Positions 27,074 through 51,962 of a stretch of 64,000 nt of DNA are shown piece after piece. Position 1 is the first letter of the stretch. The number at the start of each line of letters is the position of its first letter. Origin of the DNA: Kocuria massiliensis (lineage in GTDB: Bacteria; Actinomycetota; Actinomycetes; Actinomycetales; Micrococcaceae); the NCBI RefSeq assembly GCF_900169715.1, contig NZ_LT835161.1, positions 1,107,590 to 1,171,589 of the forward strand. The letters run 5' to 3'. The position numbers were made by a program, and so were the translations under genes. The notes under the pieces were generated by a model, which saw nothing but the letters and a program-made list of their open reading frames with translations, had not been told where the DNA came from and did not search any database.

Positions 27074-28783
27074 ATGGCCGAATCTGAATCCACGATCAAC
27101 CCGCGCGACCACGAGATGACCCTCCGGCAGCTCAATGTCTTGCGCGACCAACGCTTGAACCTCAATAAACAGTTGAAGGAATCAACGTTACGCAACGACA
27201 AATTGGTCCGTGCCCTGGAAGGGGCACGTAGCGATATTCAGCGTCTCAAGCAGGCCATCGCTCAAGATCTCGAAGCTCCCATGAACCAGGCCCAAGTGGT
27301 CCGGGTCAATCACCGCAATATCTGGTCGTCTTCCATGAACGACGACGTCGCCCCGCTCGTATCGACCCAAGCCAGCCTGGACGTGGTGATGGGCGGGCGC
27401 CGGATCAGGATCCCGGTGAGCCCTGTGCTATCGCTCGATGAGGTCAAAGTCGGCATGACCGTATTGCTGACGGAAACCGTCGGGGCATGTGCCTGCGTCG
27501 GATATCGCGAAACCGGTGAGATTGCGAGCGTCCGGGAGATTTTGGGTTCCGACCGTTTGGTGTTGGGGACCGGTTCGAATAACCAAGTCGTCGCCCTGCG
27601 TTCGGGACAGTTGGTCGAATCCGAGGTCAAGATTGGCGACGCCGTCTCCTTCGATTCGGCCAGTGGCATCGCGCTGTCGCTCGTGCCTAAATCCGACGCC
27701 GAAGACCTGGTGCTGGAAGATACTCCGAATGTTTCCTACGAGGACATCGGTGGCCTGACGCCTCAGATCGAACAGATCCGCGATGCCGTCGAACTTCCGT
27801 TCTTGTACCCGGAGCTGTATCGAGAGCACGATCTCAAGCCGCCGAAGGGCATTCTTCTCTATGGTCCTCCCGGAAACGGCAAGACCTTGATCGCTAAGGC
27901 CGTGGCCAAGTCCCTGGCCGATCGGATGACCGGTGACGCGCAAGACGGCACATTGCGCGGATACTTCCTCAACATCAAGGGCCCGGAATTGCTCGACAAA
28001 TTCGTCGGTGAAACCGAGCGGCAGATCCGCGCCATCTTCGCCCGCGCCCGGGATAAGGCTACGGCAGGAAACCCCGTCGTCATCTTCTTCGACGAGATGG
28101 AATCGCTGTTCCGAACGCGTGGTGCGGGCAAGTCTTCCGACGTGGAAACGACCATCGTTCCTCAGCTCCTCGCCGAGATCGACGGCGTCGAGTCGTTGGA
28201 CAACGTCATCGTCATCGGCGCCACTAACCGCGAAGACATGATCGACCCTGCCGTTCTTCGGCCCGGTCGACTGGATGTCAAGGTTCGCATCGATAGGCCC
28301 GATTACCAAGGCACCGGCGAGATCTTTGGACTCTATGTGCACTCCGAGCTGCCGCTTCGTGCGGACGACGTCTCGAAGTACGGTGGCGACCGAAATGCAC
28401 TGGCTGCATCCATGATCGAAACGGTGGTGGCCGACATCTTCACCCGGGACGAAGAGCATCGGTACTTGGACGCCGTCTTGGTCGATGGCCGGCGAATCCC
28501 CGCGTATTGGTCGGATTTCCTCTCGGGTGCCTTGATCCACAACATCGTGGATCGTGCCAAAAAACTCGCCATCAAATCCTTCCTGGACGATGAGGTGAAG
28601 GGTTTGAGCGTCGAGCATCTCGTGGAGAGCGCCCGGACGGAATTCTTGCAACAGCGTGATTCCGCATCACGAGGCGACGTTGAAGATTGGCTGGGACGAA
28701 TTGGGCATTCGGTTCCGCTCTCAGGCATTGAATTTCCTAGCGGAAGCCTGGAGGCCAGCCACTCTGAACGAGGAATTTCATGA
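27074..28783 (+). CDS. arc: Proteasome-type AAA ATPase ARC (Mpa)
   Basis: A 569-residue AAA+ unfoldase. The N-terminal coiled coil (about 14-66) binds Pup. The tandem OB domains span about 75-205. The ATPase has Walker A GPPGNGKT (264-271) and Walker B VIFFDE (336-341). It unfolds pupylated proteins. The C-terminus ends LEASHSERGIS and has no tyrosine-containing QYL/GYL tail, which Mpa uses to open the 20S proteasome. This fits the missing prcBA genes. It lies 26 bp after trmI and overlaps dop by 4 bp. Confidence 0.93.
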   Translation: MAESESTINPRDHEMTLRQLNVLRDQRLNLNKQLKESTLRNDKLVRALEGARSDIQRLKQAIAQDLEAPMNQAQVVRVNHRNIWSSSMNDDVAPLVSTQASLDVVMGGRRIRIPVSPVLSLDEVKVGMTVLLTETVGACACVGYRETGEIASVREILGSDRLVLGTGSNNQVVALRSGQLVESEVKIGDAVSFDSASGIALSLVPKSDAEDLVLEDTPNVSYEDIGGLTPQIEQIRDAVELPFLYPELYREHDLKPPKGILLYGPPGNGKTLIAKAVAKSLADRMTGDAQDGTLRGYFLNIKGPELLDKFVGETERQIRAIFARARDKATAGNPVVIFFDEMESLFRTRGAGKSSDVETTIVPQLLAEIDGVESLDNVIVIGATNREDMIDPAVLRPGRLDVKVRIDRPDYQGTGEIFGLYVHSELPLRADDVSKYGGDRNALAASMIETVVADIFTRDEEHRYLDAVLVDGRRIPAYWSDFLSGALIHNIVDRAKKLAIKSFLDDEVKGLSVEHLVESARTEFLQQRDSASRGDVEDWLGRIGHSVPLSGIEFPSGSLEASHSERGIS

Positions 28784-30366
28784 TCTTCGAACGTGCCATG
28801 GGCACCGAAACGGAATTCGGCATCATCTGCCCGGACAACCCTGGAGCCAATGATTCGGTGCTGTCGACCTTGGTGGTCGACAGCTACCCCCATGCGGCCG
28901 CCGAATCCGGGTGGGATTATGCCTCCGAATCGCCGTTGGAAGACGCCCGTGGGTTCCAGATGGGGCAATCGGAAGCACACCCGAGTCAGCTGACCCATCA
29001 AGGTCACGTATTGACCAGCGAAGACATCGCTCGGGAGGTTCTGGATGATTCCCCGAGCATGGTGAACCGATCGTTCTGGGACCGTGCCGTGATGAACCGC
29101 GTGTTGCCTAATGGGGCCCGTTTTTATGTGGACCATGCGCATCCTGAGTATTCCGCGCCGGAGACCACCAACCCCTGGGACGCGACGATTTGGGACCTCG
29201 CAGGCGATCGCATCGCTGCTGCGGCGGCCACGTCAGTCGGACGCAGGTACGCCGAGTCGTGGCCAGAGGCCATCCACCTCTACAAGAACAACACGGATAA
29301 TAAGTCCGTCTCTTACGGCGCTCACGAAAATTACCTAGTTCCCCGATCCCTGAATTTCCAGAAACTCGCGCGTCATCTCTTGCCGTATTTCGCGACGCGT
29401 CAAGTCATCACGGGCGCCGGCCGTGCGGGCATCGGCGCGAATCATGTGAGGCCTGGCTTTCAGATCAGCCAACGGGCCGACTTCTTCGAGCGAGAGATCG
29501 GCTTGGAAACCACCATCCGCCGGCCGCTCGTCAACACCCGGGACGAACCTCACGCGGACCCCGAGCGCTTCCGTCGCCTCCACGTGATTACGGGAGATTC
29601 GAACCTGTCTCATACTTCGACACTCCTTAAACTGGCGAGCGCGGCCGCCGTGCTGACGCTCATCGAGCACGACGAGGTGCCGGACCTCACGTTGGCAAAC
29701 CCGGTGCAGGCCATGATCGAGACAAGTCATGACCTGACGTTGGAGCGACTCCTGACGCTCAAGGACGGACGTCGAATGACGGCCGTACAGATTCAACGGG
29801 CTTATGCCGAGGCCGCCCAACAGTTGGCGGAAAAACGTGGATGGAACGACGAGCGAACTCGGCGGACATTCGACCTCTGGTTCCATGTTCTTGAGGCTTT
29901 GGAAAACGATGTGTTGTCGTTGGCTAACCGCTTGGATTGGGTTGCCAAGTACGCTCTCATCCGGCAATACGAAGGACGCGGTGTCGGTCTTGACGATCCC
30001 AAGATTCAGGCACTTGACCTTCAATATGCCGATTTACGACCGTCGAAAAGTCTGTACACCAAGTTGGTCTCTTTGGGCCGCATGAAAACTCTTGTGGACG
30101 ACGCCTCAATCGACGACGCCGTCGTCGAGCCTCCCGAAAACACTCGGGCTTACCTCCGCGGCAAGATTTTGGGCCGTTGGCCTCACCAGGTGGATTCCGC
30201 AGGGTGGGATGTCTTCACGGTCACAGACCCGGCAACGGATCGGCGACACCGGTGGCTTATGGAGGACCCCGCGCGGTGGACTCGCGAGGAAACCGAGCAT
30301 GTGATCAATTCCAGCTCGAACGCGCATCAGGCCCTGTCCCGTCTGGGCCTGCGTAAAATTCAATGA
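28780..30366 (+). CDS. dop: Pup deamidase/depupylase Dop
   Basis: A 528-residue protein of the glutamine-synthetase-like PafA/Dop family. It has the N-terminal Glu-containing GTETEFGI loop (8-15), the nucleophile region NGARFYVDHAHPEYSAPE, and INTRDEPHAD-type C-terminal signatures. The longer interdomain loop after GTETEFG, compared with PafA, identifies Dop. It converts the C-terminal Gln of Pup to Glu and also removes Pup from substrates. It overlaps arc (ATGA) and precedes pup by 21 bp. Confidence 0.93.
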   Translation: MIFERAMGTETEFGIICPDNPGANDSVLSTLVVDSYPHAAAESGWDYASESPLEDARGFQMGQSEAHPSQLTHQGHVLTSEDIAREVLDDSPSMVNRSFWDRAVMNRVLPNGARFYVDHAHPEYSAPETTNPWDATIWDLAGDRIAAAAATSVGRRYAESWPEAIHLYKNNTDNKSVSYGAHENYLVPRSLNFQKLARHLLPYFATRQVITGAGRAGIGANHVRPGFQISQRADFFEREIGLETTIRRPLVNTRDEPHADPERFRRLHVITGDSNLSHTSTLLKLASAAAVLTLIEHDEVPDLTLANPVQAMIETSHDLTLERLLTLKDGRRMTAVQIQRAYAEAAQQLAEKRGWNDERTRRTFDLWFHVLEALENDVLSLANRLDWVAKYALIRQYEGRGVGLDDPKIQALDLQYADLRPSKSLYTKLVSLGRMKTLVDDASIDDAVVEPPENTRAYLRGKILGRWPHQVDSAGWDVFTVTDPATDRRHRWLMEDPARWTREETEHVINSSSNAHQALSRLGLRKIQ

Positions 30367-30593: not shown

Positions 30594-32027
30594 ATGCAAC
30601 GCAGGATCTTCGGAGTAGAAACCGAGTTTGGCATCCGATTTTCCATGTCAGGGATGGGCCATTTGGGTCCCGAGGAGGCAGCACGGAAGCTGTTCCGCCC
30701 TGTCGTGGATTGGGGCCGCTCGTCGAACGTGTTCCTCGAAAACGGCGCTCGGCTGTATTTGGACGTCGGATCGCACCCGGAATACGCAACGGCAGAATGC
30801 GCCGAGCTGACGGACCTCGTACGGCAAGACAAGGCCGGCGAACGGCTCTTTGAGCGCTTGGCGCAACGCGCCGAGGAAGCCCTGATAGCCCAGGACATGC
30901 CCGGGCGATTGCACCTTTTCAAGAACAACGTCGATTCTGCCGGCCACTCGTTTGGCTCTCACGAGAACTATTTACTTTCGAGGAAAGCAGAGTTTTCACG
31001 CCTCGTTCGCTTCTTGGTTCCGTTCCTCGTCAGCCGGCAGATCGTGGTGGGCGCGGGTCGAGTCCACCCAACCGGTCCGCCCGAGGCCCAAGGCGCTCCT
31101 GGAACGGGCGAGGCTTCGTACTCGTTCTCACAACGCGCCGACTATGTATGGGAGGCTTCATCCTCGGCGACCACGAGATCGCGCCCCCTCATCAATACCC
31201 GCGACGAGCCTCACGCCGATGCCTCACAGTATCGCCGCCTCCACGTCATCGTGGGAGATTCCAACATGTCCGAGACCACGACCTTGGCTCGGCTGGGCAT
31301 GACAGACGTCATCTTGAGAATGATCGAAGATCACGCGAACCTCGAGGACCTGGAACTCGCAAATACGGGCCAGGCGCTCAGGACGATCTCTCACGATCTC
31401 ACCGGTCGCGAAACGGTCGAGCTGAAAGACGGACGACACATGTCGGCCTTGGACCTGCAACGGTATTACCTAGAGGCGGCACAGAGCTTCTTGGCAGCAC
31501 ATGGGTCTCACCGTTCGGAAACGGACTATGTCATGGATCTTTGGGCGCGCACCTTGGACGCGGTAGACCGTCAAGATACATCCTCCATCGACACCGAAAT
31601 CGACTGGGCGATCAAGAAGAAATTGCTCGACCGTACCGCCGCAAAGCGTGGCTGCGATTATTCAGATCCTAAAATGGCCCAACTGGACTTGGCTTATCAC
31701 GACATCAATCGGGCCCGCGGTATCTACTATCTTCTCGAACGCAAAGGCCAAGCAAGGCGTTGGATCGATGAGGAAAGCGTTATCCGCGCGGAGTCCGTTT
31801 CGCCGGAAACTCGTGCCCGGATTCGCGGTCGGTTTATCGCCGCTGCACAACACGCCGGGTCCGACTACACGGTGGATTGGGTCCACTACAAGATTAATAA
31901 TGTCCCCGCGATGGCCCATGTATGCCAGGATCCCTTCGCCACGTTCGATGAGGACATTGAACGAACCATAGAACTCCTGCGAGAAGCGACGGCTTCGGGG
32001 TCAACCCCCATGCCACCGCTGATCTGA
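30594..32027 (+). CDS. pafA: Pup-protein ligase PafA
   Basis: A 477-residue ligase of the glutamine-synthetase superfamily. It has GVETEFGI at 7-14 (ATP/metal Glu), NGARLYLDVGSHPEYATAE with the catalytic Asp, and the HLFKNNVDSAGHSFGSHENY and NTRDEPHAD motifs. It phosphorylates the C-terminal Glu of Pup and forms an isopeptide bond to substrate lysines. It lies in the arc-dop-pup-pafA operon with 5 bp spacing to pup. The gene looks intact, so pupylation should work even though no proteasome is encoded here. Confidence 0.95.
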   Translation: MQRRIFGVETEFGIRFSMSGMGHLGPEEAARKLFRPVVDWGRSSNVFLENGARLYLDVGSHPEYATAECAELTDLVRQDKAGERLFERLAQRAEEALIAQDMPGRLHLFKNNVDSAGHSFGSHENYLLSRKAEFSRLVRFLVPFLVSRQIVVGAGRVHPTGPPEAQGAPGTGEASYSFSQRADYVWEASSSATTRSRPLINTRDEPHADASQYRRLHVIVGDSNMSETTTLARLGMTDVILRMIEDHANLEDLELANTGQALRTISHDLTGRETVELKDGRHMSALDLQRYYLEAAQSFLAAHGSHRSETDYVMDLWARTLDAVDRQDTSSIDTEIDWAIKKKLLDRTAAKRGCDYSDPKMAQLDLAYHDINRARGIYYLLERKGQARRWIDEESVIRAESVSPETRARIRGRFIAAAQHAGSDYTVDWVHYKINNVPAMAHVCQDPFATFDEDIERTIELLREATASGSTPMPPLI

Positions 32028-33573: not shown

Positions 33574-35728
33574 ATGGCTACGACCGTACCTGAGAGGCTC
33601 TTCGCCTTATACAGTCTCCTCGTCTCCCAAGAGCGCCCCATGACCAGGGCGCGCATCCGGGAGAGTATTGACGCATATCGGAGTGCGAGCTCTGATGCGG
33701 CTTTTGAACGGACCTTCGAACGAGACAAATCGGCGTTGCGGCGTCTGGGGATGCGCCTGCAAACGAATACTTTGCGCGGAGAACCGGTCTATAGCCTGGA
33801 CCGCAATCGCCTCTGGCTGTCGGAAGAAACATTTTCGCCTTCCGACAAGTTGACCCTGGGGGTCGCGGCCCGCCTTTGGTCGGACCCTCACTATGCACGG
33901 GATGTAGATCGCGCGGTGAGGCGACTCGGATATCGTGACGAGAATTCCACCGAACCTCACAATCGCTGGAGTCCGGCGTTGAATGGGGGAGGAGATCACC
34001 TCGATCTCGTGCTTGAGGCTCTCGCCCAAGGCACCGAATTGCGCTTCAACTACCGCCGTGTCGATTCCTTCGACGCTTTGCCCCGCATCATGAGGCCCTG
34101 GGGAGTAGGGCAACGATTCGGGCACTGGTACGTCGGTGGTTGGGACTCTGACCGGAAAGCCTTTCGCACGTTCCGCTTGTCCAGGATGAGCGCCATCACG
34201 CAATCGTGGACCACGCTACCGGCAGCCGACCCGGAGTTTTCCATGGCTCGAGTGCTTGCCGGAATCACCGAATCTCAGAGTCCTGCGGTAAAACTCACCT
34301 TTCCCACCCATGCTTGGCCCATGGTCATGGACTGGGTCGAAGACGGCACAGCGCTTCGCGGGATGGATGCGCTCTCGGAAATTCCTTCCTCGATGGAGCA
34401 AGGCCAAGTGGGGAGCGCATCGATTACTGTCGATGTCCCGGATATCCAAGAGTTGATCCGGTGCCTCGCGGAACTGGGTGGTGCTGTCACGGTCGAGGTC
34501 AGCAACGACGCTGGATTCTCCAGCGCGGAGATCAATGATCGGGTCGAGGCACAGGCTCGGCACGCTGTCGAATTGCAGGACGAAGTCTCCTCGGCCTATA
34601 CCTCGGGGGCCGTGCAGATTGAAGCCCCGCGCAGGGAACGTCATCGAGAGGCGAGCGAGCGACGGTTCGTTCGTCTCGTCGATCTCGCATCATTCCTCGG
34701 ATCGCATCAGGGTTGCACGACGGGAGAGATCGCGAAGCATCTGGACATTCCGCCGTCGCAAATCAACAAGGATTTGATGGCCTTGGCCAACGCTGGATCT
34801 GAGCTACTGGGCAGCGCCTACATGATGGTGGACGCACATGACGACGTCGTCCGGGTCGAGCTTCCGCGAGAGCTGGATCAGCCCCTCAGCCTCGCTCCTG
34901 ACCAGACCATTCGTCTCGTTCTCGCCTTGCATCTTTTGGGGGAGATCAGCCCAGGACACCGTGAGCAGACTCGGGGCATCGCCGATAAGCTCGCAAAAAC
35001 GGTGACCCTCGCTAGCGTCGAGTCCGATCAGCTCTCGGTCCATCTCGAATCCATTACCACGGAACATCTGTCTATCCTGCGCGAGGCAGCTGACGAAGGC
35101 CGTCATGTAGGCATCCTGTACCGTTCACGGTCGCAAAGCTCCGCTACGTGGCGCACGGTGCGGCCCACTAAGGTTTATGCAGACGGACCCACGTGGTACG
35201 TCAGCGCCGCCGACGCCAAAGACGGCCTAGAACGCACCTACCGGGTCGCATCTATTCGGGCCATCGAACGTGAGACGCCACCTGTCCGCCGACGCCAAAG
35301 ACGGCCTAGAACGCACCTACCGGGTCGCATCTATTCGGGCCATCGAACGTGAGACGCCACCTGTCCCGGGTGTCCCTGCTGAATCCACGGCGGCTCACGG
35401 TGGTGACAACGAATCGCCGCAAGATACCACCGCTCACATGTGGGTCGATGCCTCGTGCCCCGAGCTTTCGGCTCTCATGAATGGAACTCAACTCGGCCAG
35501 GCACGGATATCGCGTGCGGATGGTTCCAGCATCGAGGGACAGCTCATCGAGGTTAGGGTTCGCAGCTGGTTCAGTCTGTACCGGATGATGTTGCACCACG
35601 CGGGGCGCATGGCATTGTGGCAGCCACAATTGTGGGCACCAGAATGGCGAAGAGAGCTCTATCGACGCCGGATTCTACAGAATCCCTGTGACCCAAGCGA
35701 TCGGCCAGGTCAGCCTACTCACAGTTGA
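33574..35728 (+). pseudogene. pafBC: Fused PafBC transcriptional activator, frameshifted by a 79-bp duplication
   Basis: Encodes two tandem HTH-WYL units: HTH about 1-60 with a WYL domain (WYVGGWD, 185-191), then HTH about 360-425 with a second WYL domain (WYVSAAD, 541-547). This is the fused form of mycobacterial PafB and PafC, known in Arthrobacter, which activates LexA/RecA-independent DNA-damage genes. The frame stops at 35352 after 592 residues because bases 35207-35366 contain a perfect 79-bp tandem duplication. After residue 571 a foreign 21-residue tail replaces the C-terminal WCX part, which continues in the +1 frame to 35728. Removing one copy gives 691 codons. There is no ribosome site before the ATG. 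Confidence 0.85.
35207..35366. repeat. Perfect 79-bp tandem duplication inside pafBC
   Basis: Bases 35207-35287 and 35286-35366 are identical over 81 nt, giving a 79-bp unit plus a shared CC at the junction. The CC dinucleotide is the likely microhomology. 79 is not a multiple of three. Confidence 0.98.
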
Positions 35729-50679: not shown

Positions 50680-51962
50680 TCATGCGCTAGCTGGATTGAT
50701 GGAGTACCGGGAGCTACAACCGCCGTCTGCACGTTGACGGAGGCGGGGTATTCTCGCCGCCCGCTTCAGGCCAGTTCTTGTGGCGGAGTCGTCTAGTGGT
50801 TCTAGACGCCTTTGTCCACCGGCGTCGTGGCTACCCAATAGATTCGCTCTACTCCGTCGGTGGTCTCCCATTGTCCGTCCACTCATGGAGGTGACACATC
50901 GGCAGGTAACTTTCCGGGGAGCACTTCTTAGCACCTGTACGTGTGGGGTGCGCTCTCCCTCATTTCCTGTCAGATCGTTGTCGAGCAACCGATAGACCGG
51001 CTGCGCAAATACCGAAGAACCACGTGTCGATTCTATCCGCTCGAAACTTCTCTCCCAGTGGCCTCGGCGGGATCTCACCCCGCTGAAGATCCGAAGAATG
51101 TTGCTCGAGTCTCGGAGGACTACACGGTGTCGGCAATGGGTGGCAGGGACGCGATGCTGGAGCCTATACGATCGCGAACAACACATTCGGTAGCGTATGT
51201 CCGATTTGGTGGTGGTTGCCTTGCGTCTTTCGATCTGTTCGGTGGCGTTTGTCCGTATCGGTTGAGATTGCCATGCGGGCTTCGGTCCGTTTAGAGGCGT
51301 TTGTCCGATTTGGTGGGGTTTTCCGTGCGGTCTCCGGTCTGTTGAGCGGGGTTTGTCCGTATCGGCGGCGGCAACCGTTCGGTAGGTCGCTCGTTCGGTG
51401 GGGTTTACCCAATTTGGTGGGGCCTGCAGCTGTTAGGAGGCGGTGTAGCCACCACCTAACGGAATTAAGCACATCCGATTCGGGTAAGCGCCACCCAACG
51501 TCGAGACTTTTCCGTCTCTACGCTCTCCACTCGTGATGGTAGGCGCCCGCCAACCGGGCAACCGCCGCCTAAGAGCCGGATGCCACCCGGCCCCGATGAG
51601 CGACTAACGGCGACGGGCGGTGGACACCCCCCCTCCTGATGCTCCAGTCGGACCCCTCAATAGCCGCGGTTCGGCTGTCCACGACAGCCCGGGTCGCAGG
51701 GCAGCAGCCAACATGCTCTACAACAAAGATGTGGCACCACCCTACGCGTGCCCCGTGCATTGGGCGGACCCAACCTCCGCGACAATTGCTACTACACGCA
51801 GCGCACATGCTGCCATCCCGCACATGCGCCGTCCCAAGTTCAGTTTCCCCTAGCCCTTGCGCAAGCGCTTGGAGAAATCTCGCGTAGTCTCCGGCGGGCG
51901 CGGAAGTTACACGAGTCCTGAAGCTGTCGGTCCCCCGGGGCCTCCACCAACGTGGCCATGCA
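50680..51962. other. 1.3-kb stretch with no recognisable gene
   Basis: The only long gene-free interval in the window. Open frames on both strands give low-complexity, Arg- or Ser-rich translations with no domain. It contains a 7-bp perfect inverted repeat around 50790-50808 (CGTCTAG-TGGTT-CTAGACG), the 52-bp tandem array, and an imperfect 12-bp hairpin at about 51432-51460. It may hold a noncoding RNA or a decayed region; I cannot say which. Confidence 0.7.
51198..51425. repeat. Degenerate tandem array with exact 52-bp period
   Basis: Units start at 51198, 51250, 51302, 51354 and (partial) 51406. The first four begin TGTCCG and end GTT. Units 1 and 3 share TGTCCGATTTGGTGG; units 2 and 4 share TGTCCGTATCGG, so the array alternates A-B-A-B. 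Units 1 and 3 agree at about 39 of 52 positions. The period is not a multiple of three. Confidence 0.85.

Follow-up and report, generated by a model that had tools for sequence, protein, structure and literature searches.

Previously, tandem duplications within pneumococcal capsule genes have been reported to inactivate them by frameshift (Waite et al. 2001, 2003, as cited in PMC4022640), and in cap8E/wchA, tts and the type 3 capsule locus such duplications reportedly cause phase variation. This is the closest known kind of event to the one that we describe in pafBC of an actinobacterium, where a duplication within the gene would likewise inactivate it and could revert if one copy is lost. However, the pneumococcal target is a surface polysaccharide gene with reported phase variation, whereas the target here is a DNA-damage regulator and the case is known from sequence only. 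Tandem-copy changes near Pup-system genes, including dop, have also been described in Mycobacterium tuberculosis Erdman (PMC12817950). There the repeats lie in promoters and a change in expression is proposed, whereas the repeat here is coding and truncating.

Fused PafBC proteins are named for Kocuria rhizophila and Thermobifida fusca (PMC6789036), and the WCX fold has been described for PafBC in the same report. In the solved structures, PafB is joined to PafC through mutual binding of the WCX domains, which, together with the WYL domains, form a tunnel for the activating single-stranded DNA (PMC6789036, PMC11804915). About 15% of WYL proteins are reported to combine HTH and WYL without a WCX domain (class B; PMC6789036). 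When pafBC is deleted in M. smegmatis, the MIC of mitomycin C falls from 160 to 4 ng/ml (PMC5656591), which supports, for mycobacteria, the role in DNA repair that the initial annotation of this locus had assigned to PafBC. Our literature search found no paper on PafBC in Rothia, nor on a truncated or pseudogene pafC in DNA damage.

The window, that is, the whole 64,000-nucleotide stretch of DNA that was analyzed, comes from a genome of 2.43 Mb in four contigs (G000). We infer that its genus is Rothia in the GTDB sense, and this name is used here for genus-level counts. On contig C4 of this assembly, a run of 159 N (L130:716-874) marks either masked sequence or a gap in the assembly. The locus reads dop-like, pafA, two FKBP genes, pafBC, tat genes and helicase, with putative gene names assigned partly by homology. 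The open frame at 30594..32027 (plus strand), upstream of pafBC in the same locus, resembles Pup ligase; we take it to be pafA, and it has a match in 35/35 genus genomes. A paralogue at 28780..30366 (plus strand), presumably dop-like, is the second pafA match in its own genome (41% identity). Elsewhere in the window (51186-51365), two ORFs, each at least 120 aa long, have between them a 52-bp unit in about 3.5 imperfect copies.

The pafBC open frame (33574..35352, plus strand) adjoins pafA and encodes 592 aa in the order HTH-B, WYL-B, WCX-B, HTH-C, WYL-C, followed by 21 foreign residues (572-592) after the last native residue, 571. Pfam places WYL in two stretches of the product (2.1e-29, 101.7 bits), the WYL-B domain spanning 33994..34200 (residues 141-209), and HTH_PafC at 34663..34995 (residues 364-474; 3e-18, 66.2 bits against a cut-off of 32). 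HTH_PafC and two WYL domains thus stand in one chain, as in fused class C proteins of the WYL family, and the product matches the solved PafBC structure 6sj9 (6.2e-37). Like that fused protein from Arthrobacter aurescens, the gene carries HTH-WYL-WCX twice per chain and lies beside pafA; over the shared part it aligns to its relatives at 23-61% identity. However, the fused actinobacterial PafBC is complete, whereas the product here ends after WYL-C: WCX-B is in the chain and WCX-C is out of frame. In a structure model of the 592-aa product (mean pLDDT 69.7, pTM 0.34), residues 569-592 fall below 50. A viral relative was searched for, and none was found.

The interruption is caused by two identical copies of 79 bp (79/79), set head-to-tail inside the fused gene on the plus strand. 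Copy 1 (35207..35285) encodes the end of WYL-C, and copy 2 (35286..35364) is read out of frame up to the stop at 35350-35352. The identity is prolonged by the CC at 35365..35366, a 2-bp junction microhomology that gives 81/81 at offset 79; the unit is otherwise ordinary coding sequence. A duplication of 79 bp shifts the reading frame, and the product lacks WCX-C. A chance origin of the repeat is ruled out, as the expectation of a repeat of this type in 64 kb is effectively zero. On removal of one copy, (2155-79)/3 gives 692 codons including the stop, which matches the 691-aa orthologue (L032) of the nearest relative, G044. The reading of the gene as pafBC, the 592-residue product with its foreign tail of 21 residues, the 81/81 identity (79/79 plus a 2-bp overlap at the shared CC), the native C-terminus open to 35728 in another frame and the 691 codons after deletion of one copy, all given by the initial annotation, agree with these results.

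The displaced frame (35270..35728, plus strand), a mechanically called ORF of 152 aa from GTG 35270, carries the native C-terminus. Its core at 35426..35665 (plus strand) is modelled with a WCX fold, the predicted order being strand-helix-strand-strand-helix-strand with a C-terminal helix (mean pLDDT 67.7, most of the core 87-94). Alignment shows that the conserved LxRxMxHHxG block is retained, and Foldseek gives PafBC and DriD as the best matches, with weak E-values from 0.026 upward. Pfam yields no match for this frame at E 0.001, nor a separate WCX match in any of four intact relatives; the WCX call therefore rests on alignment, fold model and position. No stop codon occurs in this frame at 35367-35725. 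Its identity is 40% to L032 and 36% to L034, these two sharing 35% with each other; the corresponding values for the N-terminal part are 60.5%, 51.3% and 54.3%. The displaced end has thus diverged much as the relatives have from each other and is free of stops, which indicates that it has not decayed, and an old pseudogene is ruled out on the same grounds. Separate translation of WCX-C from GTG 35270 was also considered and rejected, as no ribosome-binding site was seen by eye.

It is conceivable, if unlikely, that the genome is really single-copy and that the second copy is an overlap left in place when contig ends were joined or a gap closed. The copies are perfectly identical, and 79 is an odd number, as de Bruijn k-mer lengths are. 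The two-copy form is known from one strain's assembly, whose sampled part contains N (a single N besides the 159-base run), so that a duplicate could stem from the filling of a gap or the joining of contigs. However, an assembly error would be expected to merge tandem copies into one and not to add them (PMC12817950), and two sister genomes are interrupted by other means at the same spot. A joining fault might also repeat itself, but in the window and a further 800 kb of the same genome we found no other perfect duplicate whose unit exceeds 33 bp. In this sample (about 36% of 2.43 Mb, scanned for units of 15-1000 bp), the pafBC repeat is the longest perfect tandem duplication, the remaining ones having units of 15, 18, 23, 15 and 33 bp. 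Its standing as the longest in 864 kb argues against a general assembly fault, though not against a single one.

Close relatives speak for a young mutation. Each of seven (G003, G006, G008, G018, G022, G024 and G044) has one open pafBC frame of 677-723 aa, the nearest, G044, having 691 residues. Between the HTH_PafC match and the stop they have 204-219 residues, as against 118 in the window. Repeats of the 79-bp type are absent from the relatives' pafBC loci that were scanned, these seven included. Since 7/7 close relatives are intact and free of the repeat, the two-copy form is, judged by sequence comparison, derived and recent. This bears out the recency proposed at the outset, where a two-copy form shared by all close relatives would have counted against it; the form occurs in 0/7 of them.

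It had further been proposed that the duplication could act as an off/on switch. As in tandem-duplication phase variation, a perfect duplication that shifts the frame is present in pafBC, and frequent gain and loss of a copy would give mixed PafBC-on and PafBC-off cells, by analogy with the phase-variable pneumococcal capsule genes. The predicted PafBC regulon, described below, is still present, which counts in favor. However, the duplication does not recur at the relatives' loci scanned, and just 2 bp of microhomology is available to drive repeated gain. Furthermore, the other linker interruptions in the genus, a frameshift at or near a homopolymer and a nonsense codon, are unrelated mutations, and a nonsense codon does not revert in this way. 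The switch is therefore unsupported, and we consider an evolved reversible device of this kind very improbable. A fresh loss mutation, which the initial annotation had also offered, is the best-supported reading, with WCX-C lost here and the relatives intact.

What is new here is that two further Rothia genomes have pafBC interrupted in the same WYL-C/WCX-C linker. In G017, the frame shifts at or near a C6 run in this linker, near L192:3483 (L016 / L192); the remaining WCX-C lies in another frame, and no repeat is found at the interruption. In G039, an in-frame TAG occurs in the same linker on the minus strand, after a 566-aa frame (L122:1221-2918). WCX-like sequence stands behind this TAG (44% over 25 residues to G007, E 4.5e-4), and no start codon is evident there by eye. 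Alignment places the ends of all three frames in the one linker. A programmed frameshift was discarded, as no slippery site in common was seen by eye.

HTH_PafC was detected at E 0.001 in 26/35 genus genomes, of which 25 were kept, the match in G004 being on a short fragment of a contig. Those without a match number nine and include G023 (contig edge), G001 (gene in pieces) and G046 (none at all); in G009, G010, G014, G019, G021 and G043, the locus has a diverged frame (724-830 aa) that still aligns to PafBC. The distance from the end of the match to the stop is 110 residues in G039, 118 in G000 and 144 in G017, as against 181-224 in the other 22/25 genus genomes. In the family, 361/395 genomes match HTH_PafC, and the comparison drew on the best 150 of the 361. 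Out of these 150 came 78 genomes of other genera (20 with short frames, G378, G396 and the rest, a non-random choice), with distances of 197-270 residues. Early-ending pafBC thus occurs in 3/25 genus genomes vs 0/78 from other genera (Fisher p = 0.013, by a post hoc test selected after the pattern had emerged, each genome being one strain in a single assembly). Whole-frame length, which gave 1/150 short and p 0.009, was set aside as insensitive, because it scores the window's broken frame at 647 vs 648 for an intact one. In G001 (L115), pafBC lies in two frames and pafA is interrupted too, which may reflect poor assembly or decay. In G396 (L190), of another genus in the family and the one that scored as short by whole-frame length, pafBC is split in WYL-B near residue 201 and the C-terminal end is kept.

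Loss of WCX-C might be tolerated or even advantageous, the shortened PafBC, which keeps both HTH and both WYL domains, still working or having altered sensitivity, so that such alleles recur in the genus. Three interruptions by three mutation types in one linker, together with the 3/25 vs 0/78 contrast, would fit, as would the partial binding retained by a PafC variant with three WCX substitutions (PMC11804915). However, WCX-C is kept in 7/7 close relatives, and in the solved structures dimer and tunnel are held by the WCX domains (PMC6789036, PMC11804915). G046 (L108) has pafA but no pafBC between the FKBP gene and tatC, nor HTH_PafC anywhere in its genome, which suggests plain decay. The Fisher p was moreover 0.064 with the first 36 family genomes, and the comparison rests on single assemblies and a non-random family sample. 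We thus regard tolerated or advantageous loss as quite doubtful. A bolder version would have Rothia repeatedly and selectively removing the WCX-C of PafBC by duplication, homopolymer slip or nonsense, so that one wall of the sensing tunnel is lost, both DNA-binding and both ssDNA-sensing domains are kept and the damage response is retuned or unleashed, the duplication being the form that can be undone; this too seems improbable to us. It is the loss of WCX-C that recurs in the genus, and not a device for reversion.

Candidate PafBC target promoters speak to the age of the truncation. The published PafBC consensus is tTGTCRgtg-8-TannnT (PMC5656591), and G000 has one exact site, 6 bp before radA. 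The relatives suggest that the ninth base may also be C, and the resulting genus form, TTGTCRGTS-N8-TANNNT, was picked after these sites had been seen. It gives six sites in G000 (L119:918-940, L173, L174, L175, L176 and L177), 6-62 bp ahead of ORF starts, in a scan that considered downstream ORFs only. The genes behind these six predicted promoters are radA and sbcD (named by NCBIfam), recA (presumably so, by similarity), a PD-(D/E)XK/RNase H nuclease gene that we label RecB-like, an HD-domain gene and one of 104 residues for which Pfam gives no match. Transcripts from two of the six predicted promoters, which lie 6 bp ahead of the start codon, might be leaderless. With one mismatch allowed, the pattern scored 9 vs 5 for a reversed control in G000 and 12 vs 4 in G044, a background that is not negligible; the exact genus-form matches kept were 6/9 and 6/12, and 3 and 6 were dropped.

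A predicted site is kept at all six genes in G044, and four of these were confirmed in G003. Among 11 other genus genomes searched with the genus form, 6 have 1 to 4 sites, and none were found in G009, G012, G017, G041 and G046 (5/11). Since G017 is without sites, the regulon argument does not extend to that genome. G039 has four, two of them before recA and the RecB-like gene and two that match none of the six genes. Because its sites at recA and the RecB-like gene are kept, the truncation in G039 may be tolerated or also recent. LexA is present in G000, with 7 palindromic places for the LexA-box pattern vs 4 for its control. In G000, the predicted PafBC regulon looks to be in working order, which is what a recent failure of PafBC would lead one to expect.

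Taken with a young duplication, a recent failure could have come about as follows. Replication slippage or a comparable event, using 2 bp of microhomology, would have doubled 79 bp within the fused pafBC; as 79 is not divisible by 3, the frame would be lost directly after WYL-C and a stop reached 21 codons on. The shortened PafBC would probably be unable to form the activated, ssDNA-bound dimer. Since WCX domains help to build both the ssDNA tunnel and the dimer, it should be a poor or dead activator. PafBC-driven induction of recA, radA, sbcD and the other predicted targets would then be weak or absent, and the LexA branch would stay. In M. smegmatis PafC, mutation of three WCX-C aromatics reduced binding of ssDNA and RNAP without abolishing it (PMC11804915). 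As this variant still binds, loss of WCX-C may not be null; that PafBC has lost all function is likely, though short of certain. With one copy removed, the pafBC frame could be restored. We therefore consider it probable that the truncation is a recent mutation that weakens or abolishes PafBC and is mechanically revertible without being an evolved switch, one instance of a truncation of PafBC that recurs in the genus.

If the duplication were an assembly error, the cases of G017, G039 and G046 would be unaffected. That three different truncations cluster in one linker hints, modestly and in a way that can be checked, at domain-specific selection. If real, the locus offers a natural truncation of PafBC with its predicted promoters in place, which would allow the role of WCX-C to be tested. 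It could also show whether an actinobacterium manages without its main RecA-independent activator of the damage response.
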